Assembly: GCA_027365485.1 (NCBI GenBank)
Contig: DAHXNH010000293.1
Location: forward strand, 1 to 32,527
From: Clostridiales bacterium
GTDB lineage: Bacteria > Bacillota > Sulfobacillia > Sulfobacillales > Sulfobacillaceae
Reading direction: 5' to 3'
Length of the DNA: 32,527 nucleotides
Part shown: positions 11,254-24,494 of the stretch, piece after piece
How positions within the stretch are numbered: the first letter of the stretch is position 1
Layout of the letters: the number at the start of each line of letters is the position of its first letter
Position numbers and translations under genes: made by a program
The notes under the pieces: generated by a model
The model's input: only the letters and a program-made list of their open reading frames with translations
Databases searched by the model: none
What the model was told of the DNA's origin: nothing

Positions 11254-13299
11254 TTAGTGAATCGTCATATACTGCAACTGGTAGAAATACTGCATTTGCC
11301 AAGGATTGGCCACTACTTGACTGAGGTTCGGTTTGGCTACGTACACGGTTTCGCCGTAATTTAGCGGGATGACATAGCCAGATTGGATCATCGCATCGGC
11401 GATCTTCGCGGCGAGAGCGGCCGATTGACTGGCGCTTGGCGTGTTGGCTAGTTCAGCTGTCCACATCCGCTCGTTGGCCACTAACGGGGGTTCGTGTTGA
11501 TCGTTCCAAGCTTGACCATTGATGCCGAGACTAATCGTCCCACCGCCTTCCGAGTACGTTCCCACGAATTTCCAAAAAGCTTCCCAATCCTGATGCTTGG
11601 CCTGAGCCGTCTTAGCCGTTTTGTACGAGGCAAGATAGAGGTTAAGGTCTTGGGTTAAGGTGGGCACTCCGGGAATAATCAGTGCGGCTCGATAGGCCGC
11701 CGGCTGCCTTGCGGTCCAAGCATCGATGTAGGCGATGTCAGCTTTGGCGGCTTTAATCAAGGGCTGCCAAGTGGCGTACGTCACGCCCCCGTGAGTATTA
11801 GTGGGATTGCCGAAGGCTTTCACATTGCGGGGGTCATAGGGGTCGAGGTACCAAACTGCAGTGTGGGATCGATAGGCCTGAGGTCCAATAGACCCGTAAA
11901 AGCCCTCCCACTGATTGGACTGCAAGGGCCAGTTGACGGTGCTGTCCCAATTCGACACTCCCAGATCGGTACTGTACCCAGGCAAAATCCCAGGATCAAT
12001 GCCTTCGTACATCAGCGTGTTCTCTTCCGTCGTGTTCATCGGTTCGATTTTGAAGTTTAGGTTCAAATTGGTTTTTAGCTCTGCGGAGATTGCTTCGGCC
12101 ATGGAGATGGACTGTGGGGAGTAGGTTTGGGTAAAGGTGTAAAGATACAATTGCCCTATGCCCTTGCCATCGGGATAACCGGCTTTGGCCAAGAGCTTTC
12201 GCGCGTTAGCAACGTTGTAACCATACGGATTATGCTCGAGGGTATAAGTTGGAAATCCTGGGTAGGCGAAGACCGACGTGGCTCCAGCCATATTGTTGAG
12301 GACGGGATCAACGATTGGGGCACGGTCGATCGCCATGGCGATGGCTTCACGGACCAAAGCGCTATTGAGTGCCGAAGGATCCGGCGAATGGTCGTAGCCC
12401 AAGTAATTGACCAAAGCCTCCGGAGTTTTGTGCACTTGGCTGGGAAAATGGGCTAGCGCATACTTGTAGTCCGAAGGAGTGCTAATAATCGCTGCGTCTA
12501 AGGCCCCGGATTCGTAATCTTCGAGAGGGACCGTCGGTTCGGGGATTAGGTTGATTTGACTCACATTGCCTACGTTGACCTCTCCAGAATGACCGACATA
12601 GTAGGGATTGCGAGTGAGGACATCTTCCCCGTTGGTTTCAAACGACTTCAGAATATAAGGGCCGTCGCCCACAAAGTACTGAGGCAGCCACCAATTGGTA
12701 CTATGCTTTTGGACATCCGGCGGATACAAGGGCATGGACCCGGCAATCGCGAGCCAGCTTTCGATATTGACCGACGCAGTGAGAGTAATCTTGAGCTCGT
12801 AGGGATTCAGCACCTTAATCCCGACTTTGGAGGCAGGCACTTCCCCTGCCTTATATGGTGAAGCATTGAGCACGTAGTTGACGACACTTTCCCAAGTAGC
12901 CCCGTCCGTGTTGGACGGGGAATCCATTCGCATCCATGCGTAATAAAAATCTTCGGCGGTGACAGGTTGACCGTTTGACCAACGCGCGTTGTGCCGTAGT
13001 TGGATGGTCCAGACGCGACCACCGTCAGAAATTTCCCAACTCTGAGCGATTTTGGGCTCTAGTTGGTTTTTGGCATTGTATCCGAACAAGCCTTCGAGAG
13101 TGGTGCCTTGGTCAATTAAAATTTGACTGCTCCAGGTCAGGGGGTCGAAGGTCGACAGAGAACCTGCCGGGTAAACTATGGACACCGCTTTGGTCGCTGC
13201 CCTAGCCACCGGGGACATCGTTTGTAGCAAACTGGTTCCGCCGAGCGCAGCGCTGGCCAAGACCACCGATGCGATTGCCATCAACTTGGGTTTCGTCAT
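11254..13299 (-). CDS. Secreted ABC-transporter solute-binding protein, family 5 (peptide type)
   Basis: Encodes 681 residues from ATG 13299, preceded by AAGGAGGAT; upstream in-frame codons to 13509 have no ribosome site. Family 5 binding proteins capture oligopeptides, nickel or related ligands outside the membrane and hand them to ABC permeases. Seen: a Sec signal peptide of about 34 residues ending SPVARA before the mature ATK, then the family pattern with TFDPLTWSSQ, LEGLFGYN, QPTVAEDFYYAW-like text (PVTAEDFYYAW), a GDGPYILKSF strand, and LVREAIAMAIDR in domain II. There is no cysteine at the cleavage site, so it is not a classical lipoprotein. No permease or ATPase gene lies nearby. It is longer than the usual 540-600 residues. 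Confidence 0.88.
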   Translation of the reverse strand: MTKPKLMAIASVVLASAALGGTSLLQTMSPVARAATKAVSIVYPAGSLSTFDPLTWSSQILIDQGTTLEGLFGYNAKNQLEPKIAQSWEISDGGRVWTIQLRHNARWSNGQPVTAEDFYYAWMRMDSPSNTDGATWESVVNYVLNASPYKAGEVPASKVGIKVLNPYELKITLTASVNIESWLAIAGSMPLYPPDVQKHSTNWWLPQYFVGDGPYILKSFETNGEDVLTRNPYYVGHSGEVNVGNVSQINLIPEPTVPLEDYESGALDAAIISTPSDYKYALAHFPSQVHKTPEALVNYLGYDHSPDPSALNSALVREAIAMAIDRAPIVDPVLNNMAGATSVFAYPGFPTYTLEHNPYGYNVANARKLLAKAGYPDGKGIGQLYLYTFTQTYSPQSISMAEAISAELKTNLNLNFKIEPMNTTEENTLMYEGIDPGILPGYSTDLGVSNWDSTVNWPLQSNQWEGFYGSIGPQAYRSHTAVWYLDPYDPRNVKAFGNPTNTHGGVTYATWQPLIKAAKADIAYIDAWTARQPAAYRAALIIPGVPTLTQDLNLYLASYKTAKTAQAKHQDWEAFWKFVGTYSEGGGTISLGINGQAWNDQHEPPLVANERMWTAELANTPSASQSAALAAKIADAMIQSGYVIPLNYGETVYVAKPNLSQVVANPWQMQYFYQLQYMTIH

Positions 13300-14649
13300 T
13301 TCTAAAATCCTCCTTAAAAGGGGTGCGAGAGACTGAACCGTTCCAAGTTCTACGCCGATATCGGAAAACACTGACCAAAGCGATATGATGTAGCGAAAAC
13401 TAAGATTCGGGAAATAATCGAAAATTCCTGCTAGCCTGGCGAAAAAACGCCACCAAAGTGAACCGAAAAGTTGAACCACGGTATTGTTACGGCTGCAGGG
13501 ACTCAGCAACTGCCAACATTTTGAAGGAAACTCTGTGTGGGATGTTTTTTCGGTCGTCCACGAATCTTCTAGGGAAATTGATCGTCAACCGAGGCCGTCA
13601 TCGGCTAAATTCTGGTGAGATTAACACGACGCCAGGCGAGGACTTGCAGTCATTTCAGCGGTTGCCGATAACTTAGTAGCATTGAAGGCGAACCCAGGCA
13701 CTTCCGGCAGAGCTCGCAGAAGCCTCCAGTCATCGCCCCAAAACGGTGCAAGAGGTTTTTGCCTAAGCCTCAAGTGAAGCGGACATTCCAAGTGGCAGCA
13801 CATCAAGGATGCGGCTGAATTTGACTGATCATGTCATTGCCGTCGGACGAATCTTAAGATGGGAAGAGTCGTTCCAGGGCGCTATTCGTCCATAGATCTT
13901 AGATCGAAGTGCGGGCAGAGCAGCCTGTCTTATCCAATTAATTAAACGACTAACGATCTTCGTCATTCGTGAATCCTCCAATCTCAGCCAAATGATCTGC
14001 GCTCACTGTACCAACCCCTGCCTTCGATGGCCTTGGCAAGCGCTAGCTGTTCGCGGTGTTAGTTTGTTGCCGGGTCATCCGGTCCGGCGGAGAACCTTGG
14101 AGCCTCAAAGGAGCATGGGACGCCAATTTAAGCCAATCAGGCCTGGGCCTCGACTCCATCGTGCCGGCCCCCGGGGATTTCCGAAAAATGTGGGATGCCG
14201 GGCCTCTGGCAAGGATTGGTGGCACACCCGCAAGCTTCTTAAGGATCTGGGATCACCACCCATTCAACCAAGACAACCAAGACAACCGTGGAAATCAGGG
14301 CCGACTCGGACTCCTTACCCGCGAAGGGCCAAGGGGCCTATGCCGGGAATGGACCCGAAAACCTCCTTAACCGCGCAAGAAGGTATGAAGAGGGCCTAAA
14401 CCTTTTCGATCGGTCAGCCCGCTGCCCTGACTTTCACCAAGAGCACGAGGCGGCCCTCGGGGGAGGGGACGGATCGTCCTTACGATGGCGATTACCAGCG
14501 GGCCGAAAGTGATACCGGGGACGGCGGATCGCGTCATGGTTTCCGTTTTGGGGGAAACGCCCACGTGTTAGGGAAACCATTATGCAAAAAGGTGTTGAGA
14601 CGCACAGAGCTTAGGCATCAAACCGGCAAATGGGCGCATAGCGTAAGGC
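13300..14649. other. Gene-poor block left of the repeat protein
   Basis: About 1.35 kb with no convincing long gene. It holds the leader of the solute-binding protein (to about 13450), a possible 45-codon minus-strand ORF (13829-13966, listed separately), and scattered frames of 60-135 codons on both strands with no ribosome site and Arg/Pro-rich low-complexity products. A short tandem repeat (unit CAACCAAGA, 2.5 copies) lies at 14265-14287. I see no insertion-sequence ends, RNA gene or CRISPR repeat. The block may be decayed coding sequence. Confidence 0.5.
13829..13966 (-). CDS. Possible 45-residue small protein, or remnant of a larger gene
   Basis: A minus-strand ATG at 13966 follows TTGGAGGATTCACGA, a ribosome site as good as those of the proven genes nearby, and opens a frame of 45 residues ending with TGA at 13829. 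The product is basic, with an N-terminal helix-like stretch of alternating hydrophobic and charged residues (IVSRLINWIRQAALPALRS) and few acidic residues. No family is recognised. The frame after the stop does not obviously continue, although a second frame at 13621-13806 on the same strand could be the shifted remainder of a broken gene. Either a genuine small protein or the translated start of a pseudogene would fit. Confidence 0.35.
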   Translation of the reverse strand: MTKIVSRLINWIRQAALPALRSKIYGRIAPWNDSSHLKIRPTAMT

Positions 14650-14684
14650 AAAAAGGCGTCCATCGATTTTCACCGATAGACGCC
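14650..14684 (-). terminator. Rho-independent terminator of the 662-residue protein gene
   Basis: On the minus strand GGCGTC pairs with GACGCC and an inner ATCG with CGAT, giving an interrupted 10-bp stem over an 8-nt loop, directly followed by TTTTT. It begins about 48 bp past the stop of the minus-strand gene ending at 14732. Confidence 0.85.
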
Positions 14685-14731
14685 CGCTTACTCCTGGAAA
14701 TACAGCCTGTCCGCGCAGATGAACGAATCCG

Positions 14732-16720
14732 TTAACTGGATGGGTGAGAATCGAGCAGCGCGTTCACCGTCGGCCACAAGTGGACGATCTTTTTGTAGAC
14801 TAAGGGATTCAAACGATACTCTAGAAACCAAGACGCGTCAGTACCCGAGGCCTTGAGAGCAGGGATCCACGGAGCCAACGCACCTACGTAAGTCGAAAGT
14901 AAATCGTCAGGCAGCAACCCTTCAATTTTTTCTGCCATTGCTACCAGAGAAGACATCGGGGTCACCGACGCTGGCGTAGGCTCTGGCTCACGAACTTTTG
15001 GCTCATCAAATTGCGGGTGCGCAAATGAACCTTGGGAGCTAGCTCGGGACGGCTGACGCGTCAGACGGTAACTCGTACGGCGGTTGGAACTAATGCGTTC
15101 GACGATATACTCACCGTGCGGGTGTGTTGCAGCCTGGATCAGCCAGAGAGATAACGGGTGTTTCTGGGTGACACTCTTTAACGGTGGCAACGGCAATGCC
15201 CAGCCGTGTTCAGCCCCAGTGTTTTCGAGATCTCGTAAGATCACCGACTTATTGCCAAAAGCGCGTTCCCATCCGGCCAAAAATTTTTGGATTTGGGCGT
15301 CCGAGAACGAGAACTGATCCAGATCGGGCGTGCCCGCAGGAATCTTGGCAGACTCGGTCGTCACCGACGACGAGCTGGGAGATTGCGCCCGCCCAGGCTC
15401 GACCGAATCGGGAGAAGCAAAACGCAATTCGAATACGGTTCGTTTTTTGCGCGGGTTATAGGAATGTTCGATGCTCACACCGATCTCCGCCGGAAGCGGT
15501 TGCGTAAGCAACTCCCGGAGATAGCGCATTTGCTGTGTGTGCATCTTGGGCAACACCCGGCGCAAGCTCGGATCCTTGGTAATCACCTTCAAGATGCGGT
15601 CCAAGGGTACAGCCTCCGAGCCCAATTCGGACGTCCACGCTTCCACAAATCGAGCCCAGTCGAGCCGCGACCACCCGTCGGGGTTGGAGGGCGGAAGGGC
15701 TTCCCGTGTCGTGGACGAGGGGGCTGGCATGGCTTGAGCGGCTCCCGGAACCATTGCATAGCGAGACTCCCAGGGAGTGGCGGCGCGTTCTTCACAGGCT
15801 AAAAGGCCTAAGCGTTCCGCCTGTTCCAGCCAATCCATGATGCGTTGGCGCGCAGTCAGGGGATCGTCGCCTGCAACCGCGGTTGATGGGACGATGCCGC
15901 GCTCTCGAATAAGCCAGTGTAATTCCTGGCCTGACGCCGCCTGGCCGCCATTTTTCGCTGACCAGGCTTTGGCGAATGCTGGCCACTCGTCATCGGCCAT
16001 CACCGGCCCTGCGGTCGAAGAAGTGGAATCCCTGGCTTCTACACTCAACCAATGCGTATAGTTGGCTAATAGCGAATCCAGGTCCGGAGAAGACGTGGTC
16101 GGGCTGGTGGTAAGCCATTGCTCCAATGCAACCAATTCGTCGTCGTGAGTGGCGTAGGCGTCCCAAAAGTCGGAATCGTTGAGGCATTGTCGGGCCAACT
16201 TGTCAGTCCAGGCCGCAGGCAAGGTCAGGTCTTCCGACTCTTGGGGATGTTGGTCGACCCATTTGGCAATGCGAGCCCACTCATAAAACGTGCTAAATGG
16301 GAGATCGCGCGTACCTTCGGCGACCCGTTTGACCAACAATCGAGCATCGTCGAGTGTCTCCGAGTTCCAGTGGTAGCTTTCTAGAATGCGCTGCCACATG
16401 GTGCCGGGATTGCTGTGCAGGGTTTTGGCTATAATAGTGGCTGCCGGCGGCAGGGTGACATAAGGTTTGGAGCCTGGCTCTTGAGAGGCCCAGATCTGTA
16501 CAAATTTGGCCCAATGAGACAAAGATGGCTCGGGTGCATCGGGGACGGAAAAGTATCGTACGGTAGCTAAGGCTCTTTTGTCTAACGGCAGAGTAAGCCA
16601 ATGTTGAGCGCGTTCGGGATCCCAGCCGGCGTGCATCAACACCGTGCCTGCGACCCCTTTCCAAGGATACGAAGGCGCGGTAAAGGTGTAGCGCCTGGGT
16701 TCTGATGTTTGTTCCTCCAT
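14732..16720 (-). CDS. Uncharacterised 662-residue protein with three or more 82-residue repeats
   Basis: Encodes 662 residues from ATG 16720, with TTTGGAGGAGG about 9 nt upstream; longer in-frame starts to 16945 lack a ribosome site. No known family is recognised. I see three diverged repeats of nearly equal length: residues 245-326, 354-435 and 476-557. Each opens with an aromatic-F-x3-W helix (EWPAFAKAW, DWARFVEAW, QIQKFLAGW), then a Gly and a hydrophobic helix, and closes with a basic hairpin ending in R-Y/F-x-L, set 67-68 residues after the header Trp. A fourth header (HWAKFVQIW) occurs at 69-77. The shape recalls winged-helix domains such as those ending phage/plasmid primase-helicases. 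Linkers are Ser/Pro/Thr-rich. There is no signal peptide or membrane segment, so the protein is probably cytoplasmic. It is monocistronic with its own terminator. Confidence 0.8.
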   Translation of the reverse strand: MEEQTSEPRRYTFTAPSYPWKGVAGTVLMHAGWDPERAQHWLTLPLDKRALATVRYFSVPDAPEPSLSHWAKFVQIWASQEPGSKPYVTLPPAATIIAKTLHSNPGTMWQRILESYHWNSETLDDARLLVKRVAEGTRDLPFSTFYEWARIAKWVDQHPQESEDLTLPAAWTDKLARQCLNDSDFWDAYATHDDELVALEQWLTTSPTTSSPDLDSLLANYTHWLSVEARDSTSSTAGPVMADDEWPAFAKAWSAKNGGQAASGQELHWLIRERGIVPSTAVAGDDPLTARQRIMDWLEQAERLGLLACEERAATPWESRYAMVPGAAQAMPAPSSTTREALPPSNPDGWSRLDWARFVEAWTSELGSEAVPLDRILKVITKDPSLRRVLPKMHTQQMRYLRELLTQPLPAEIGVSIEHSYNPRKKRTVFELRFASPDSVEPGRAQSPSSSSVTTESAKIPAGTPDLDQFSFSDAQIQKFLAGWERAFGNKSVILRDLENTGAEHGWALPLPPLKSVTQKHPLSLWLIQAATHPHGEYIVERISSNRRTSYRLTRQPSRASSQGSFAHPQFDEPKVREPEPTPASVTPMSSLVAMAEKIEGLLPDDLLSTYVGALAPWIPALKASGTDASWFLEYRLNPLVYKKIVHLWPTVNALLDSHPSS

Positions 16721-18171
16721 AGACCTAACCTCCTCCAAAGTACGCTGACTGGACATGGGTTTCAGCGCGTAGGTTGCGTCCGCGGATCGTGGCGGGTTGG
16801 ATCGGACTTCGACCTTGGCAAAACCACTAGCGGAGGGCTGGCGGCATCGCGCCCCTCTTGATCCGGTGGCACGATGGCGGCGGGTCGGCGCATCTAGCCA
16901 CCGGCACATATCTCCGATCCTTCGGTTACACCCGCAAAAACCCATAAGGTCACTGCCAACTATTCCCGCTCCATTTTACTGCATTGGTCGCGATCTATCA
17001 AGAGATGGACGCGGCTCGGCAATACCGTGGGAAGCGAGAGGGCAGGCCATTCGTTGTACGGGCGGAGATCCAGGGTATCTGCGCGCCTAGTTCGTCATCA
17101 CGCCGATCCGGGTTGTACGAGCGGGAGTTAAGCCTCTGGAGGGGGGTCAAAGTCATCGACCCCCCGGGGAAAATCAGGCCCACGAGGTCGAAATGATCGG
17201 GAACCGGGGGCGGTGCGTCCTTCGAAATGGCGTCCTGGCTTTTACCCGGACGCCAAAGAACTCGGGGCTTTGGAGGTCTTTCCCTGCCATGTTCACTTTT
17301 GTCAGACTGGCGGATTCGTCTAACCCTCGGCCCGACAGCCCGACCTTGTTGCAGCGAACCCAGCGATTCCTTGCAGACAGTGGGGGGTAAGCGTCGTTGC
17401 ACCGGAATGACCAGTGAATGCACGGATCCGTTGTCGCTTCATCCGTTCTGGAGTGGGGTAGCGTGCATGGTTTGAGCGCCAGGACTTGTGAGCCTGAACT
17501 CAAAGTCCCGGCCGTGATCCGGGGATCCCTAGCGAAGATCCGTCCCCCCAACCACGATGGCCGACGGTCGGAGACCGCTTCAGATCGGACCGTTCAGCGC
17601 GTGGTGTCGGGTTTTCGCGGACTCTCCCGCAAAAACTCCTGAGTCGTTGCGAAATGGCTTAGAAGGGGTCCGTAGGCACCGAAGGGTTTTGGTCGGCGGG
17701 CGTGACCCGGGGAAGCAAGACCCAGGCCGCCTAAATCCCTGATAACCTCTGGCCCAGGGACTTGGCGATGGGGGTTCCGGTGCCTGATTAGCCTGCGGGT
17801 TTTGACCCCGGAGCTCACCCGGGGGCAAGGATCAGGAGCAGCGGGAGAGCGGCAGATTCCCAAACTCGGCGGATAGTGCCTAAAGCAGACGAGATGGCCG
17901 ATGCACAGTCGACGCCCACAATGTGATTCGCGTCCGAAACCATCGATCCACCCGAAAAGAGGAGCGCGTGCCCGGGTTTTCCTGGCTCAGGAGAATGGTC
18001 ATAGCCGGTCGCGGAGTAGGGTGTGGTGGCTTGCATTCGCGCCTCTCTCGATCCTCATCATCCGATTATATGCACCGCATTCTAGAGAGGGATGGTCGGC
18101 AGGTGAAGCGCAGCGGAGCGAGGCGGGAAAGGAACTCTCGCCTCGGATTCGCCGAATTGGAGTGAAGAACG
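16721..18171. other. Gene-poor block right of the repeat protein
   Basis: About 1.45 kb without a convincing gene. Several frames of 60-140 codons occur on both strands, none with a ribosome site, and overlapping each other in a way typical of GC-rich non-coding DNA. The left end must contain the promoter of the repeat-protein gene, but I find no good -10/-35 pair. A GC-rich hairpin lies at 17141-17165. A near-duplicate of about 12 nt (GTTGTACGGGCGG and GTTGTACGAGCGG) occurs near 17055 and 17113. An 8-bp inverted repeat AGGCACCG/CGGTGCCT brackets about 17671-17785, which might fold as an RNA. Confidence 0.5.
17141..17165. repeat. GC-rich hairpin
   Basis: GGGGGGTC and GACCCCCC form a perfect 8-bp stem over a 9-nt loop. 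No T-run follows on either strand and no gene ends nearby, so it is not a clear terminator. It may belong to an unannotated RNA or be an isolated hairpin. Confidence 0.5.
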
Positions 18172-19089
18172 CTAACTGCCGGATTCGGTGTGCTTCACGG
18201 TGTTGCTCATCCGCGACCACTTGCTCGACTCCAACACCGGGGTCGACTTGATGGCGGCGATGAGTCGATCCATATCGCGGTGCAGCGGTAGGATGCCGAG
18301 GCCTGCCTTGCCGGAAGGATGCGGCAATTCCATTCGGGTGAGCGGCGCTTGATCGGGATAACCAATGTCTTTTTGAACGCCGACCGCGGTCGCGGCAGAA
18401 TGGGTGATGGCTTGGCGTTGGGAAACGTCCCAGAGCGCCGACTGACCCCGGGGATTCTTGGGAATGAGTTCCACGGCCAGACCGTCTTCCAACCACCGTT
18501 GGCGCGTGTGGGGAAGGCCGACTTCCATTAGCATCACGTCGCCCGCATACAGTAGCGAGTCTTTTTCAAAGCTAATCTTGGAAGGGCGCACGTCAATCAT
18601 TTGGCCGACGGTGGGTCCATGCATGAAGTATTCTCCGCCGATTATGGCCAAAATTCCAATGACGATCCCTGGAATCCAGCCTAAAAATGCGGCGCTGGCT
18701 GAAGTTAAGAGGCCAATCAGCATGGCCAGGAAATTACGCGCTTCGTAGGTGATGGCGATGCCGGCAATATAGCCCGCTCCCCTAGGCACCAAAATGAGAT
18801 TTTCTTCGGCCGTCAGCGTTGCTGCCTCGGTAGTGCGCACATCGCGAAATTGCGTCGCGGCTAAGGTCAAAAACGTGGCTGCGGTAAATTCCTTCCCAAT
18901 GAGCGCGGTAATTATCGACGACCCGATCATAGCGGCGATAATACCCAGCGCCAACTGCGAAATATAACCGGAGGGGTAACCGGGGTAGTGGTCACGCCCG
19001 CTGCGCAAAGATATGAGGCGCGAGATAAATCCGGCCACAAACCCGATAATCATCGGAGTCCAGTTGATCGCTGGAGTCGAAGATGACAC
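18172..19089 (-). CDS. YIEGIA-family integral membrane protein
   Basis: Encodes 305 residues from GTG 19089, with GGGAG about 10 nt upstream. The YIEGIA family is found in endospore formers and has no firmly established function. Seen: a polar N-terminus, membrane segments near residues 11-29, 43-65, 118-137 and 138-156, and a conserved loop with QFRDVRTTEA (80-89) and LVPRGAGYIAGIA (100-112). The name-giving motif reads YIAGIA here, so its glutamate is replaced by alanine. The C-terminal half (about 157-305) is soluble, with an LPHTRQRWLEDGLAVELIPKNPRG stretch and a helical tail. It is divergent from the CorA-type gene, with 112 bp between starts. A role in the spore or its envelope is inferred from family distribution only. 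Confidence 0.75.
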   Translation of the reverse strand: MSSSTPAINWTPMIIGFVAGFISRLISLRSGRDHYPGYPSGYISQLALGIIAAMIGSSIITALIGKEFTAATFLTLAATQFRDVRTTEAATLTAEENLILVPRGAGYIAGIAITYEARNFLAMLIGLLTSASAAFLGWIPGIVIGILAIIGGEYFMHGPTVGQMIDVRPSKISFEKDSLLYAGDVMLMEVGLPHTRQRWLEDGLAVELIPKNPRGQSALWDVSQRQAITHSAATAVGVQKDIGYPDQAPLTRMELPHPSGKAGLGILPLHRDMDRLIAAIKSTPVLESSKWSRMSNTVKHTESGS

Positions 19090-19201
19090 GTCTTATCACT
19101 CCCAATTGTAATCTCAAGCCGTTCCCTGCTAGTGTGACTTGGAAACGGTCCAGGCATACGTCCATTGTTGGGTGGACACTATGAAGCCAGGGGGTGGACT
19201 G

Positions 19202-20140
19202 ATGCGAATACTATACGGAAAGGAGGGCCAGACGCGGCAAGCGCCCACCTGGCCCGACGACGCTGACGTGCTCTGGATTGATCTTGGCGCTGATGACCGT
19301 GACCAAATTGAAAATGTGCTCAACCGTCTCTATCCCGCGCATCCCGCGGCCGTACAAAAAGTGGTGAACCGCCACGACCAGCACCCCGGTCTACTGATCG
19401 AACCCAAGGCCGTGACGGCGATTGTCGACCAGCCTCACGGAACCGTCAAAGACTTGTGGACAGAGTCGGTTGGGCTAATCATTGGCCACCGGTTTATGGT
19501 GACCACGCACTGGCACGGCCCCAGCCGCATTTTGGACCAAGTGGCTGACCACGTGTTGCATGGCAATGGGCTTAAAGAAGGCATCGACATAGTCTTATAC
19601 CACTACCTGGATTTGCATATTAGCGCCTGGCAAGATCTGGTCCGTGAAATTAGCCGCGACTATGAGATGATTCATCGCGCGATGCTCAGTCACCCGTATC
19701 ATAACTTGGCTCACGATATTTTGACGCTTAGGCGGCGCACGATGCGAGCCCGTCGTTCGGTTCGGCCGGAGCAAGAAATTTTCACGCTCTTGGGCTCTCA
19801 ACACTTTCCCTACGTCCGCAACAAGAATCGACTGTACTTCAAAGATCTGTCCGACCAAATGGCGGATCTGATTGAGGATTTGAACGGGTATCGCGATGGT
19901 CTCTCCGAAGCCGTCGAGGCTTATACCTCGATGCAATCCAACGAAATTAATAAGGTCATGCGGGTGTTGACGGTAATCTCGGTACTGGCGCTGCCCGCGA
20001 CCACCATCGCTTCAATTTATGGCATGAACTTTAACATTCCTGAGCTTCATTGGAAGTATGGGTACTGGTACTCTCTGGTGTTAATGGCGGTGGTCACCGC
20101 TGCCGTCTTTTTGTACATGAAACGCCATGACCACCTTTAG
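19202..20140 (+). CDS. CorA-family divalent cation transporter
   Basis: Encodes 312 residues from ATG 19202, chosen for GGGGGTGG about 5 nt upstream; in-frame starts at 19139 (TTG) and 19181 (ATG) have weaker sites. CorA proteins are homopentameric channels for Mg2+, Co2+ or, in some branches, Zn2+ efflux. Seen: an N-terminal alpha/beta cytoplasmic domain (about 1-130), long charged helices forming the funnel (about 140-260), the first membrane helix (about 254-275) ending in the selectivity signature YGMNF with GMN at 274-276, a PEL loop, and a second membrane helix before a short basic tail (KRHDHL). All family hallmarks are intact. The transported ion cannot be assigned. Confidence 0.9.
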   Translation: MRILYGKEGQTRQAPTWPDDADVLWIDLGADDRDQIENVLNRLYPAHPAAVQKVVNRHDQHPGLLIEPKAVTAIVDQPHGTVKDLWTESVGLIIGHRFMVTTHWHGPSRILDQVADHVLHGNGLKEGIDIVLYHYLDLHISAWQDLVREISRDYEMIHRAMLSHPYHNLAHDILTLRRRTMRARRSVRPEQEIFTLLGSQHFPYVRNKNRLYFKDLSDQMADLIEDLNGYRDGLSEAVEAYTSMQSNEINKVMRVLTVISVLALPATTIASIYGMNFNIPELHWKYGYWYSLVLMAVVTAAVFLYMKRHDHL

Positions 20141-20249
20141 GGGAAGATAGGGCGGGTGCGGTTAAATTTTGCCGAAGATGGGAAAAATTAGACCATCGCT
20201 CCTGACTTCACGTCTTGAACCACAAAAAATCCCCTGAAGGAGGCCTAAG

Positions 20250-22076
20250 ATGGCCACCAGCGAATCCTCGCCTTGGCGGAGTGAAAACCGACCAGAGGCC
20301 GATGAAGCGTTTAGCATCCGCGAATATCTGGAGTGGGTCAAACACGACCCGAATCTTTCCGAAACTGCGCATCAGCGCATTTGGCGTATGGTGATGGCAA
20401 AAGGCCCGCGCGATCCGAAAGGTCATCCCTATCCATTTTTTAGTGAGACGCTTTACGGCATTGACAGGGCCATCGAGACCGTGGTCGACGAATACTTTCG
20501 GCCAGCCGCCATGGGGTTTGACGTCCGCCGTCGCATTTTGCTGCTGGTAGGGCCGGTAGGTGGCGGCAAGTCGACCCTGGTCAGTCTCATCAAACGTGGC
20601 TTAGAAAGGTTTACGGGGACAACCGAGGGAGCGGTCTATGCCTTGGTGGGATGTCCGATGCATGAGGATCCGATTCACCTGTTGTCGATGGAGGAGCGCG
20701 AGCGCTTAGCCGATGGCTATGGAGCGCGGGTTCATTGGCTGGAGGGTGGGCTTTGTCCGTATTGCCAATGGCGCCTCGATCACGAATACCAAGGCAATCG
20801 AGACTGCTTTACGGTCAAACGGGTACGTTTGTCGGAAGCCCGGCGGGTGGGCATTGGAACCTATGCGCCCTCGGATCCGCGCTCGCAGGATATTTCCGAA
20901 TTAACCGGTTCGGTAGACTTTGCGCAGATTGGCATCGTGGGCAGCGAATCCGATCCGCGGGCGTTTCGATTTGACGGGGAACTAAACATTGCCAATCGTG
21001 GGCTGGTCGAATTTCAGGAGATGTTAAAGCTTGACGAGCGCTTTTTATACCATCTTTTGTCATTGAGCCAGGAAGGTAATTTTAAAACCGGGAGATATCA
21101 ATTGATTTCGGCCGATGAGGTCATTGTGGGCCACACCAACGAAAACGAGTTTCGCGTCTTTAAGAAAAATCCCAAAAATCAGGCGTTGTTGTCTCGCATG
21201 GTGGTAGTGCCGGTTCCTTATAACTTAGACGTGGATCAAGAAGTGAAAATCTACCAAAAGTTGTTGCTGGGCCGCACCAAACCGGGTCAACACGTAGCCG
21301 CAAAAGCCCTGGAGATGGCCGCTACGGTGGCCGTGCTCTCTCGACTGGAAGATGAAGAGACCAAAGAGAGCGACCGTCTGTCCAAATTGGAGCGCCTTCG
21401 CGGCCACGGCCGCGAGAGCAGCGGATCCGGCGAAGGATTCGAAGGGATGGATCCCAGATTTGTCATCAATCGCTTGTCGCAACTTCTGGCACGGTCTGAG
21501 GCATGTGTCGATGGACTCGACGCGATTCGGGCTCTTTTGACCGGCGTGCTTGATGATCCTTTCGTCGATGCCAAGTGGCGGGAGACGGTCCAAGAATGCG
21601 CTTTAGTGGCTGAGACGCTTTGTTATCAAGAAATCGAATCCGAAGTGCGCCGAGCTTTCGTGGCCGAAGGCGAGGAACAAATCCAAGCGCTTTACCAGAA
21701 CTATGTCGAGGCCTTGACCCGCTCGGTCGAAGAACCGGCGACATTTGCCCACAGTAGGGAAGAACGCTTCCTGCGTGCGATTGAAACTCGCTTGGACGTC
21801 ACCGAAAATCAAAAACACCAATTTCGCGAGGAAATCTATCTTGGCCTAAAGAACGCTCAAGATGACTTTTATGGCGCCAGGGCCACTAAATTCAATCGCG
21901 CATTAGAAGAAAAACTTTTTGACGATCTGAGAGACGCGATGCACTTAAGTGCCCCTGACCGGGCCATGCTGGGCTGGATCGAACGCGCGGTCGAGCACAT
22001 GGTAGCCAGCGGAGGATACTGCCCACGGTGCGCCACCGGAGCGATAAGGCGGTTGGGTACGGTGTTTCGACGATGA
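20250..22076 (+). CDS. prkA: PrkA-family serine protein kinase / AAA+ protein
   Basis: Encodes 608 residues from ATG 20250, with AAGGAGG about 6 nt upstream. PrkA proteins combine an AAA+ ATPase core with a C-terminal kinase-like domain; members act in sporulation in Bacillus and in starvation response in enterobacteria (YeaG), though kinase versus protease activity is debated. Seen: SIREYLEWVKHDP (22-34), Walker A GPVGGGKST (101-109), a Cys-containing CPYCQW segment, EFQEMLKLDERFLYHLLSLSQEGNFK with the Walker B-like acidic region, the NENEF sensor region, and a long helical C-terminus ending CPRCATGAIRRLG. The length is close to the usual 630. It overlaps yhbH by 4 nt (ATGA), forming the well-known prkA-yhbH-spoVR order. 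Confidence 0.93.
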   Translation: MATSESSPWRSENRPEADEAFSIREYLEWVKHDPNLSETAHQRIWRMVMAKGPRDPKGHPYPFFSETLYGIDRAIETVVDEYFRPAAMGFDVRRRILLLVGPVGGGKSTLVSLIKRGLERFTGTTEGAVYALVGCPMHEDPIHLLSMEERERLADGYGARVHWLEGGLCPYCQWRLDHEYQGNRDCFTVKRVRLSEARRVGIGTYAPSDPRSQDISELTGSVDFAQIGIVGSESDPRAFRFDGELNIANRGLVEFQEMLKLDERFLYHLLSLSQEGNFKTGRYQLISADEVIVGHTNENEFRVFKKNPKNQALLSRMVVVPVPYNLDVDQEVKIYQKLLLGRTKPGQHVAAKALEMAATVAVLSRLEDEETKESDRLSKLERLRGHGRESSGSGEGFEGMDPRFVINRLSQLLARSEACVDGLDAIRALLTGVLDDPFVDAKWRETVQECALVAETLCYQEIESEVRRAFVAEGEEQIQALYQNYVEALTRSVEEPATFAHSREERFLRAIETRLDVTENQKHQFREEIYLGLKNAQDDFYGARATKFNRALEEKLFDDLRDAMHLSAPDRAMLGWIERAVEHMVASGGYCPRCATGAIRRLGTVFRR

Positions 22077-23239
22077 CCCGGTCTCAGCGCTTCACCGTGG
22101 GCGGAGGTGATCCGGGCCCGGTCAATGTACTCGCACCAGACCAGCGCCGCCACCGGGAGAAAATTGAACAAGCCATTCGCCACAATTTGGCCGATATGGT
22201 AGCCGAGGAGCACGTGTTGGTGACTCGCGGCGAAAGACGGTTTGCGACCCGAATCGAACATCTGAAAGAGTGTCGGATTCGCTACGACGCTCACCAGGGA
22301 ACGTGGGCTAGTCTGGGCTGGCCGGAAGGACAAAATCGACCGGAGGGAGGGCCGGAAAACGAGAGCAGCGGACGCGGGGTCGGTGGCGGCGGGGCGGAGG
22401 CCGCCTTTGGGGAAGAAGAAACCCCGGTGCTTTTGGAAGACTTGTCGCAGGCGGTGTTCTCGTATCTTGCGTTGCCCGACTTAGACCCAGAGCGAATGGC
22501 CAAGGGTGAGGGTTGGACTGGGGCATTGGGAGAATTTGGCCGCAAGGGTACGAGATGGGCCAAGCGCCAGACACTCTGGGCAAACTTGACCAAAAATGCC
22601 TATCTGGGTCAGCCTCGGATCAAAGATTTAGCGCCCGAAGACCTTCGCTTTTGGCAGTGGTCGGATGCGCCTCAGCCAGGCGGAGGGGCGGTCGTGATGG
22701 CGTTAATGGATACCTCGGGATCCATGGGGAATTTCGAAAAGTACCTGGCCAAGAGTTTCTTTTTTTGGACAGCCGAGTTTCTGAGACAACTCTATCCATC
22801 GGTGGATCTGGTCTTTATCGCCCATGACGTACGCGCCCGGGAGGTGGACGAGGACACATTCTTTCATCGTGGGGCCTCAGGCGGAACGGTGTCGTCATCG
22901 GCGTACCTCCTAGCCTATCAGATTTTGGAAGAACGCTATTCTCAGGAACAATATAATGCCTACGCGTTTCATTTTAGCGACGGAGGCAATCTGACCTCAG
23001 ACAATCCCACGGCCTTAGCGTCAGCAATGCGCCTTCAGGAGCGGGTCAACCTCTTTGGCTACGGAGAAATTCACGACACCGATCGGAGCCCCTCCCAGTT
23101 GTACCAGGCTTTGCATAAACAAGGTCGGCGGGCGGTTTTGCTGCGAAGCAAAGAGGACGTGCTGGGTGCCCTTGTCGAATTTTTCGGGGCAGCGGATCCT
23201 AGATTTGAGACCGCCCTTAAGGACAAGAAGGAGCGATAG
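22073..23239 (+). CDS. yhbH: YhbH/YeaH-type DUF444 protein with VWA-like domain
   Basis: Encodes 388 residues from ATG 22073, overlapping the prkA stop; a start at 22028 would lie deep in prkA without a ribosome site. DUF444 proteins are constant partners of PrkA and SpoVR; in Bacillus yhbH loss affects sporulation. Seen: N-terminal HREKIEQAIRHNLADMVAEE (27-46), a Gly/Glu-rich low-complexity linker (about 90-112), then a VWA-like fold opening with MALMDTSGSMG, whose DTSGS (213-217) is a MIDAS metal site. FIAHDVRAREVDEDTFF and HFSDGGN match further conserved blocks. The biochemical role is not settled; a scaffold or adaptor in the kinase complex is inferred. Only 4-10 nt separate it from spoVR. 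Confidence 0.93.
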   Translation: MTRSQRFTVGGGDPGPVNVLAPDQRRHREKIEQAIRHNLADMVAEEHVLVTRGERRFATRIEHLKECRIRYDAHQGTWASLGWPEGQNRPEGGPENESSGRGVGGGGAEAAFGEEETPVLLEDLSQAVFSYLALPDLDPERMAKGEGWTGALGEFGRKGTRWAKRQTLWANLTKNAYLGQPRIKDLAPEDLRFWQWSDAPQPGGGAVVMALMDTSGSMGNFEKYLAKSFFFWTAEFLRQLYPSVDLVFIAHDVRAREVDEDTFFHRGASGGTVSSSAYLLAYQILEERYSQEQYNAYAFHFSDGGNLTSDNPTALASAMRLQERVNLFGYGEIHDTDRSPSQLYQALHKQGRRAVLLRSKEDVLGALVEFFGAADPRFETALKDKKER

Positions 23240-23249
23240 CAGGTTGGCG

Positions 23250-24494
23250 ATGACGCAGATTAACGTATCCGCGATGCTGGATCGGGTGGGTGAATCCGCC
23301 GACCGATTTGGTCTTCCCTTATATTCGACCCATTTCGAGTTGGTTAGCACCTGCCAATTGAATCAGTTGGCGTCTTATGGCGGGATGCCCGTGCGCTATC
23401 GCCATTGGAGTTTTGGCAAACTCTTCGGGCATTACCAGACGGCCTATGATTTTCGTCAGAGTCGGATCTATGAAATGGTCATCAACCACGACCCCGCTTA
23501 TGCATTTTTGGACCGAGCCATGGAACCGACTCGCACTTTGGTGGTCTTGGCCCACGTGCTCGCGCATGTCGCCTATTTCCGTTCGCATGCGGCCTTTGCA
23601 CTCACCGCGAGTGATGAGGTCAGTGTCATGGTTGAACATCGGCGCGCGATGGAAAGCTATCAGCGTCGCTATGGCCGCAAGACGCTGGAAGCTTTCGTCG
23701 ACGCCGCTCTCGTCATGGCGGACTTCACTGCTGAAAGTGTGCGCAATCGGTCGATGGGGGAGGAGCCGGACGATCTCCTTGGGTTCTTGGCGCTCTATGC
23801 GCCAGGGCTTCACGCCTGGCAGCGTCATATCTTAACCATGCTTCATCAAGAGGCGCGCTATTTTTGGCCACAACAATTGACCAAAATCGCTAATGAAGGC
23901 TATGCCACATTTTGGCATCGTCGCATTCTCAGCGGTTTGCGCTTAACCGACGATGAGGTCCTCGCAATGGCTAAGACGAATGCGGAATTAGTGCAAGTAA
24001 CGCCTCCTCAACTCAACCCCTACCGCTTAGGCTATCTCTTGGTTCAGCAGGCACAAATGGTGGATGGGGAACGAGGCATGCTCAGAGTGGCCAAAGAACT
24101 CTTCGACACGGGTCTGGTCCGTGAATATTTGACTGCCGACGCGGTCAGAATATCGGGTTTGCAGGTATCCTGGACGGATGCAGCCAAGGTCGAGCCCGAG
24201 AAGAATTGGATGGAGGTGAAGCAAACTCTGTTGGCGGACTTGGACCATGCCGGACTACCGCGATTGACCGTCGACCGAAAGACCTCTTTGAACACGGGCT
24301 GTCTCCAACTGATCCACCGTCACACCGGCCGGGACTTGGATTACCCCATGTTAACTCAGGCCTTAACTTTGGTGGCGGAACAGATTTGGCGCGGAGAAGT
24401 CGTCATAACGACAAAATATCGCGGCATTGCCCACCGCCTGCGCCACGACGGAAAGACGGTCCGCGATGAAGTTATCGGAGAAGCGATGAATTAG
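23250..24494 (+). CDS. spoVR: SpoVR-family protein (stage V sporulation protein R)
   Basis: Encodes 414 residues from ATG 23250; a TTG at 23244 with AAGGAG 10 nt upstream is an equally plausible start adding two residues. SpoVR is needed for spore cortex formation in Bacillus, and its homologue YcgB acts with YeaG/YeaH in enterobacteria. Seen: FGLPLYSTHFELVSTCQLNQLASYGGMPVRYRHWSFGK near the N-terminus, the strongly conserved YEMVINHDPAYAFL, VLAHVLAHVAYFR, and the long stretch HILTMLHQEARYFWPQQLTKIANEGYATFWH. The GGMPVRYRHWSFG and NEGYATFWH blocks are diagnostic. The third gene of the prkA-yhbH-spoVR unit, it ends overlapping the convergent zinc-ribbon gene by 4 nt. Its molecular function remains unknown in general. 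Confidence 0.93.
   Translation: MTQINVSAMLDRVGESADRFGLPLYSTHFELVSTCQLNQLASYGGMPVRYRHWSFGKLFGHYQTAYDFRQSRIYEMVINHDPAYAFLDRAMEPTRTLVVLAHVLAHVAYFRSHAAFALTASDEVSVMVEHRRAMESYQRRYGRKTLEAFVDAALVMADFTAESVRNRSMGEEPDDLLGFLALYAPGLHAWQRHILTMLHQEARYFWPQQLTKIANEGYATFWHRRILSGLRLTDDEVLAMAKTNAELVQVTPPQLNPYRLGYLLVQQAQMVDGERGMLRVAKELFDTGLVREYLTADAVRISGLQVSWTDAAKVEPEKNWMEVKQTLLADLDHAGLPRLTVDRKTSLNTGCLQLIHRHTGRDLDYPMLTQALTLVAEQIWRGEVVITTKYRGIAHRLRHDGKTVRDEVIGEAMN

Follow-up and report, generated by a model that had tools for sequence, protein, structure and literature searches.

A 662-residue protein of the Sulfobacillus group with three predicted winged helices akin to the ends of primase-helicases, a candidate multivalent DNA binder

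The gene, its homologues and its surroundings

What could be the role of a protein that carries several predicted winged helices and no recognisable enzyme? The question is raised by a solitary gene in the window (the whole stretch of DNA that was analysed, 32,527 nucleotides), which encodes a protein of 662 residues designated P0001. A preliminary description had proposed that it consists of old, diverged repeats and could act as a multivalent binder of nucleic acid or protein. The gene and its signals are as follows.

14732 to 16720, minus strand: gene for the 662-residue protein P0001, from the open reading frame, the homologues and a dN/dS of 0.17 against sister genome G001
16727 to 16736, minus strand: Shine-Dalgarno sequence GGAGGAGGTT, read from the sequence, strong, 6 nt 5′ of the ATG
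14654 to 14685, minus strand: intrinsic terminator with a 14-bp stem (fold z -5.35); the same hairpin is present in G001

The open reading frame (14732-16720, minus strand) comprises 662 amino acids and a stop codon. Its frame continues uninterrupted upstream to 16945; this extension is kept in the sister genome only and is missing from the other homologues, so that the start assigned in the preliminary description is the likely one. The terminator lies directly past the stop codon, and none of the other open reading frames tested between 13992 and 18251 had a Pfam match. The gene was thus found, as had been proposed, to stand alone with its own terminator (hairpin 14685-14654) in gene-poor DNA. 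Pfam matches among the window genes scanned were to metabolic, transport and sporulation genes. The GC3 of the gene (0.61, compared with 0.55-0.66 in its neighbours) was host-like.

Homologues were sought in the taxonomic family (the Sulfobacillus group), where P0001 occurred in 6 of 34 genomes, that of the window included, with one copy in each and in differing places. A search for paralogues had been suggested earlier; it returned a single copy per genome, the window's own included, and five homologues in the family. These are 94, 51, 42, 38 and 38 per cent identical to P0001; the gene is spread over four genera, and relatives on named contigs belong to Sulfobacillus benefaciens and to Bacillota bins. 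No full-length P0001 was found outside the family among 154 genomes of the class, and no relative was detected in 50,697 phage records, 72,556 plasmid records or viral contigs. Weak whole-profile matches elsewhere in the phylum (DinG-like helicases, a WYL-like protein and a glycyl-tRNA synthetase subunit) were judged by reading to be chance.

The flanks of the homologues vary from genus to genus. The neighbour in sister genome G001 is an IS66 transposase; in G013 uracil-DNA glycosylase genes, a PIN gene and a group II intron were found; in G027 the neighbours are kdp genes; and in G031 a PDDEXK transposase lies nearby. A DUF3050 gene adjoins the homologue in both G026 and G031, and a functional link was rejected because DUF3050 genes also occur in genomes without a P0001 homologue. 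Iteron-like repeats common to the gene flanks were not found beside the homologues. The P0001 gene looks like an accessory chromosomal gene.

Several other observations were made on this DNA. In G013, two distinct uracil-DNA glycosylase family genes bracket the homologue (L010:6256-6831 and L010:10168-10815). Downstream of the P0001 gene, at 14265-14287 of the window, there are 2.6 copies of a 9-bp tandem repeat, whose counterpart in the sister genome is a five-copy array (L002:993-1048); it is a variable-number repeat in noncoding DNA. The segment at about 11363-13958, which holds most of a gene for a family 5 solute-binding protein, has no counterpart in the sister genome, where the sequence on either side is conserved, and was gained or lost recently. 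Sporulation-type genes occupy 18172-24494, with YIEGIA followed by PrkA, DUF444 and SpoVR in a row; the longest reading frames of DUF444 and SpoVR share 185 bases, an overlap that a wrongly called start or a frameshift probably explains.

Three repeats and their relatives

The protein was divided into the following parts.

16001 to 16720, minus strand: N-terminal domain, residues 1-240, mostly helical, the most conserved part; relatives outside the family not found
15743 to 15994, minus strand: predicted winged helix R1, residues 243-326, from AlphaFold2 secondary structure and the primase-helicase winged-helix profile (E 1.7e-7); acidic in all members
15413 to 15667, minus strand: predicted winged helix R2, residues 352-436, from AlphaFold2 secondary structure and the same profile (E 1.3e-5); basic in all members
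15050 to 15307, minus strand: predicted winged helix R3, residues 472-557, from AlphaFold2 and the same profile (E 2.3e-7); basic in all members where complete
14750 to 14953, minus strand: C-terminal helical segment, residues 590-657, from alignment and AlphaFold2; a coiled-coil-like tail extends it in two relatives

Three segments sharing a header of the type aromatic-x2-F-x3-W had been described, and all three are present. The header reads W246-x2-F249-x3-W253 in R1 and W355-x2-F358-x3-W362 in R2, as had been stated, and I477-x2-F480-x3-W484 in R3, where an Ile departs from the type by taking the place of the first aromatic. The distance from the header Trp to the closing aromatic is exactly as claimed, namely 68 (W253-Y321), 68 (W362-F430) and 67 residues (W484-Y551). 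The closing motifs (RYAM, VFEL and SYRL) fit the proposed R-Y/F-x-L loosely. When P0001 was shuffled 5000 times, a pair of header and closing motif arose 0.08 times on average, and no shuffle yielded three. The similarity of the repeats to each other was weak (hhalign E 0.0016, 0.0016 and 0.023), in keeping with the little identity noted before; it is their common match to one outside profile, together with the predicted structure, that makes the three repeats clear. The hhalign scores were 44, 35 and 41 against that outside profile, compared with 17-23 among the repeats. Being closer to the outside profile than to one another, the repeats could have arisen either by duplication or by repeated recruitment.

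An AlphaFold2 model of P0001 was obtained from a six-sequence alignment with moderate confidence (mean pLDDT 65, pTM 0.33), values at which the relative placement of the domains cannot be trusted. In this model R1 (243-323), R2 (352-434) and R3 (474-555) each show helices and then a beta hairpin, the order of a winged helix, and the topology helix-strand-helix-helix-hairpin is predicted for all three; a structure devoid of repeated domains, which would have spoken against the preliminary description, was not what was predicted. By VIA-align, R1 and R3 matched many winged helices, with Z scores of 5.7-7.1 to solved winged-helix chains, a level close to that of unrelated models and indicative of a common fold, not of function; the matched chains come from functionally unrelated proteins (linker histone, LOTUS, Fur, PadR and MukB/E/F). 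When viral models were searched with Foldseek, Pas55 of phage phiAsp2 ranked second (probability 1.00, E 0.019); this protein had been named by sequence search before the structural match. Also matched, at probability 0.99, was A0A1P8DIJ9, listed without a name; its 755 residues agree in length with the Rctr197k ATPase found by sequence.

The relatives of the repeats were traced by profile searches. Among genomes of the class, a profile of the whole protein gave one weak match (E 0.00125), over R1 only and against the last 90 residues of a helicase; the helicase's own matches include a phage DNA polymerase/primase family, and a Prim-Pol gene adjoins it. From relatives of this helicase in three more genomes and in phages TPWB-08 (whose protein has Prim-Pol and PriCT-2) and Rctr197k, a profile of the end domain was built. 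Against it R1, R2 and R3 gave E-values of 6.6e-8, 3.4e-6 and 2.6e-7, and N- and C-terminal controls gave 0.19 and 0.054, each value referring to one single comparison. Shuffled, reversed and within-protein controls were used for these profile-profile comparisons, and none of 100 column shuffles attained the score of R1, R2 or R3. When the sequence found first was left out and G356 and Pas55 were added, the three repeats still gave E-values of 1.7e-7, 1.3e-5 and 2.3e-7, and the N- and C-terminal segments of P0001 gave no match (0.21 and 0.09). Likewise, when a profile of the repeats only was run over 154 genomes of the class, the best matches outside the family were ends of primase-helicases (G089, 1.1e-6; G133, 6.5e-6 and 2.6e-5; G056, 1.2e-5; G114, 0.00107); weaker matches in G040 and G115 were judged unconvincing. 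A joint profile found a further primase-helicase, G356, in an unrelated family (E 2.1e-11); its match to L064, an SbcC-like protein, was weak and was set aside. The resemblance to primase-helicase ends that the shape of the repeats had suggested was thus borne out both by these profile values and by the Foldseek match to Pas55, and the C-terminal winged helix of mobile-element primase-helicases was recognised in three copies. At the level of sequence profiles, these data support the view that R1-R3 are homologous to the single C-terminal winged helix of phage and plasmid primase-helicases.

Known families and enzymatic domains were also searched for. The whole of P0001 gave no match above cut-off in Pfam, NCBIfam, PHROGs, PADLOC or PDB sequences, and weak matches to Rab-9A, DnaA, beta flower and SAM_SMF, all under cut-off, were dismissed. 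Neither a primase domain (Prim-Pol or Toprim) nor a helicase or nuclease was matched in six homologues by Pfam or NCBIfam. The Walker A pattern is absent from P0001, in a strict form that also misses related helicases, and reading of the sequence revealed no Gly-Lys pair at all. Pfam Pox_D5 (PF03288) was matched neither by the repeats, which are divergent, nor by the related primase-helicase winged helices. The claim that no enzyme domain is attached therefore stood (no primase, helicase, P-loop or catalytic family was matched), and the databases searched held no full-length match to a known single-domain enzyme, the other result that would have contradicted the preliminary description.

The N-terminal domain, selection and charge

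The N-terminal domain is acidic and has 84 invariant residues across the six sequences. Modelled alone, it was predicted better (pLDDT 78, pTM 0.61) than in the whole-protein model. It failed to align to the helicase set and to primase-helicases, its model had no significant Foldseek match in the PDB, a search in which relatives may be missed, and VIA gave nothing above Z 4.2 among 94 chains inspected. A fourth header had been reported at residues 69-77. The header is indeed present, and both of its Trp residues are invariant in six sequences; a winged helix behind it is not borne out, since the model has no wing and the profile match is non-significant. Although this region scored above 100 shuffles against R2 (E 0.0038), its score against the primase profile was equalled by 5 of 100 shuffles, and at most 18 residues aligned to the joint profile, so that the resemblance spans little over one helix. 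A fourth winged helix at this position was accordingly not retained.

Comparison with the sister genome gave a dN/dS of 0.17 for the whole gene. By segment, with small counts and for this one pair of genomes, the N-terminal domain, each of the three repeats and the C-terminal segment had a dN/dS of 0.08-0.14. The linkers that follow R2 and R3 had values of 0.58 and 0.54, and the short one behind R1 had 0.15. The domains of P0001, unlike two of its three linkers, are under purifying selection, and the contrast between domains and linkers largely delimits the same domains as the structure prediction. The charge of the repeats also differed. R2 and R3 had a pI of 8.1-10.7 wherever present, and R1 one of 4.8-6.1; the winged helices of the outside primase-helicases had a pI of 8.1-9.8. 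The wing of R2 in the window is basic (EHSYNPRKKRTVFEL). These values make R2 and R3 the likelier contacts with DNA. The whole protein is acidic (pI 5.3-6.7). Two homologues (L005 and L006) end in a coiled-coil-like tail (EENERLKRLLG...) which P0001 lacks and which is reminiscent of the IS3 OrfA leucine zipper.

A candidate DNA binder and its alternatives

Three DNA-binding parts of replicase type in tandem, with no engine attached, point to a binder. We consider it somewhat probable (at roughly 55 per cent) that P0001 is a non-enzymatic, multivalent DNA-binding protein built from the winged-helix modules of mobile-element replicases. In the earlier proposal of a multivalent nucleic-acid or protein binder, the three winged-helix units are now predicted and enzyme motifs are absent; the binding itself, like the valency, oligomerisation and regulatory role of P0001, is what we infer, DNA binding being suggested by sequence homology and charge. 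The protein would open with an orphan helical domain at the N-terminus, continue with three winged helices and variable linkers, and end in a C-terminal helical segment, coiled-coil-like in some members, that may mediate self-association. Double-stranded DNA would most likely be bound by the basic R2 and R3, in the manner of the replicase winged helix, and the acidic R1 and the N-terminal domain would more likely touch protein. Bound jointly to one extended or repeated site, the winged helices could make P0001 an architectural or regulatory factor in transcription or replication. Precedents exist among replicases: the winged helix of pRN1 ORF904 is a biochemically confirmed DNA-binding domain, in phage P4 alpha the winged helix binds repeats at the origin (PMC4234260), and origin recognition has been proposed for the C-terminal winged helix of PrimQH primases (PMC5862659). 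Against the DNA-binder reading stand the acidity of the whole protein and of R1, the lack of common iterons beside the genes and the only moderate confidence of the structural model. Winged-helix folds are also used for protein contacts, which likewise counts against it.

P0001 could instead be a scaffold whose winged helices have turned to protein contacts, for instance in a replisome or repair complex. The acidity of R1 in all members would fit, as would the acidic and best conserved N-terminal domain and the presence of MukE, the cullin winged helix and other modules for protein contact in the Foldseek and VIA lists; R2 and R3, however, are basic wherever present, and so is the R2 wing in the window, and we regard a scaffold as distinctly unlikely. 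An ordinary multi-domain transcription factor for a few host genes, in which the likeness to primase-helicases has no functional weight, seems doubtful, if less so. Winged-helix folds are very common among bacterial regulators, the Foldseek and VIA lists include MarR, PadR, Fur and other regulators, and the gene is solitary with its own signals. On the other hand, one-component winged-helix regulators (GntR, MarR, PadR and others) all stayed below the curated Pfam cut-off in whole-protein and repeat scans, the best match, to GntR (E 0.0048), coming from a single one among 20 repeat sequences; the repeats-only profile returned primase-helicase ends and not regulators; three winged-helix units in tandem are unusual for this class; and no conserved neighbour gene presents itself as a target.

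P0001 might also be the initiator, remnant or active, of an integrated mobile element, which we hold to be very improbable. Its winged-helix modules are otherwise seen in mobile-element replicases, its presence in the family is patchy, and some homologues have a transposase or intron gene in their vicinity (IS66 in G001, the group II intron in G013 and the PDDEXK transposase in G031). Yet no phage, plasmid, integrase or replication gene was recognised in the flanking stretches read, the phage, plasmid and viral collections held no relative, GC3 is host-like, and purifying selection acts on a gene conserved over four genera. P0001 could also be a host-encoded blocker, in which the cell would have adopted the DNA-recognition module of phage or plasmid replicases, in three copies and free of the enzyme, to occupy the origins of incoming elements and stop the start of replication. 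We rate this as a long shot; a precedent for a chimeric interfering protein comes from phage ICP1, which directs a chimeric nuclease at the subviral parasite PLE (PMC8263062).

The C-terminal winged helices of mobile-element primase-helicases (the Rctr197k ATPase and the TPWB-08 protein and, by the literature, pRN1 ORF904 and PrimQH) resemble the P0001 repeats in length, about 85-90 residues, and in a common header W-x2-[FL]-x3-W followed by helices and a closing hairpin. Those enzymes combine one winged helix with Prim-Pol, PriCT and helicase, whereas P0001 has three, with an orphan N-terminal domain instead. Pas55 of the Actinoplanes phage phiAsp2 has one stretch predicted to be structurally like P0001 and differs from it in carrying a helicase and a family A DNA polymerase as well. 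The tripartite HTH/wHTH proteins of BREX defence, BrxA among them, which are proposed to be DNA scanners, similarly place three units on one non-enzymatic chain (PMC12839542); their partner domain differs from that of P0001, PADLOC gave no match indicating kinship with BrxA or BREX at E 5, and no BREX genes were recognised among the window genes scanned or in the homologue flanks.

P0001 is a new architecture made from a known module and has so far been seen in a single small family of bacteria. The other proteins found here have the winged-helix module once, within a replication enzyme, and P0001 shows that the module can be separated and put to new use. The protein is a ready test object for what this module binds. 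If its target were the origins of mobile elements, P0001 would represent a novel type of defence in bacteria of acid mines.
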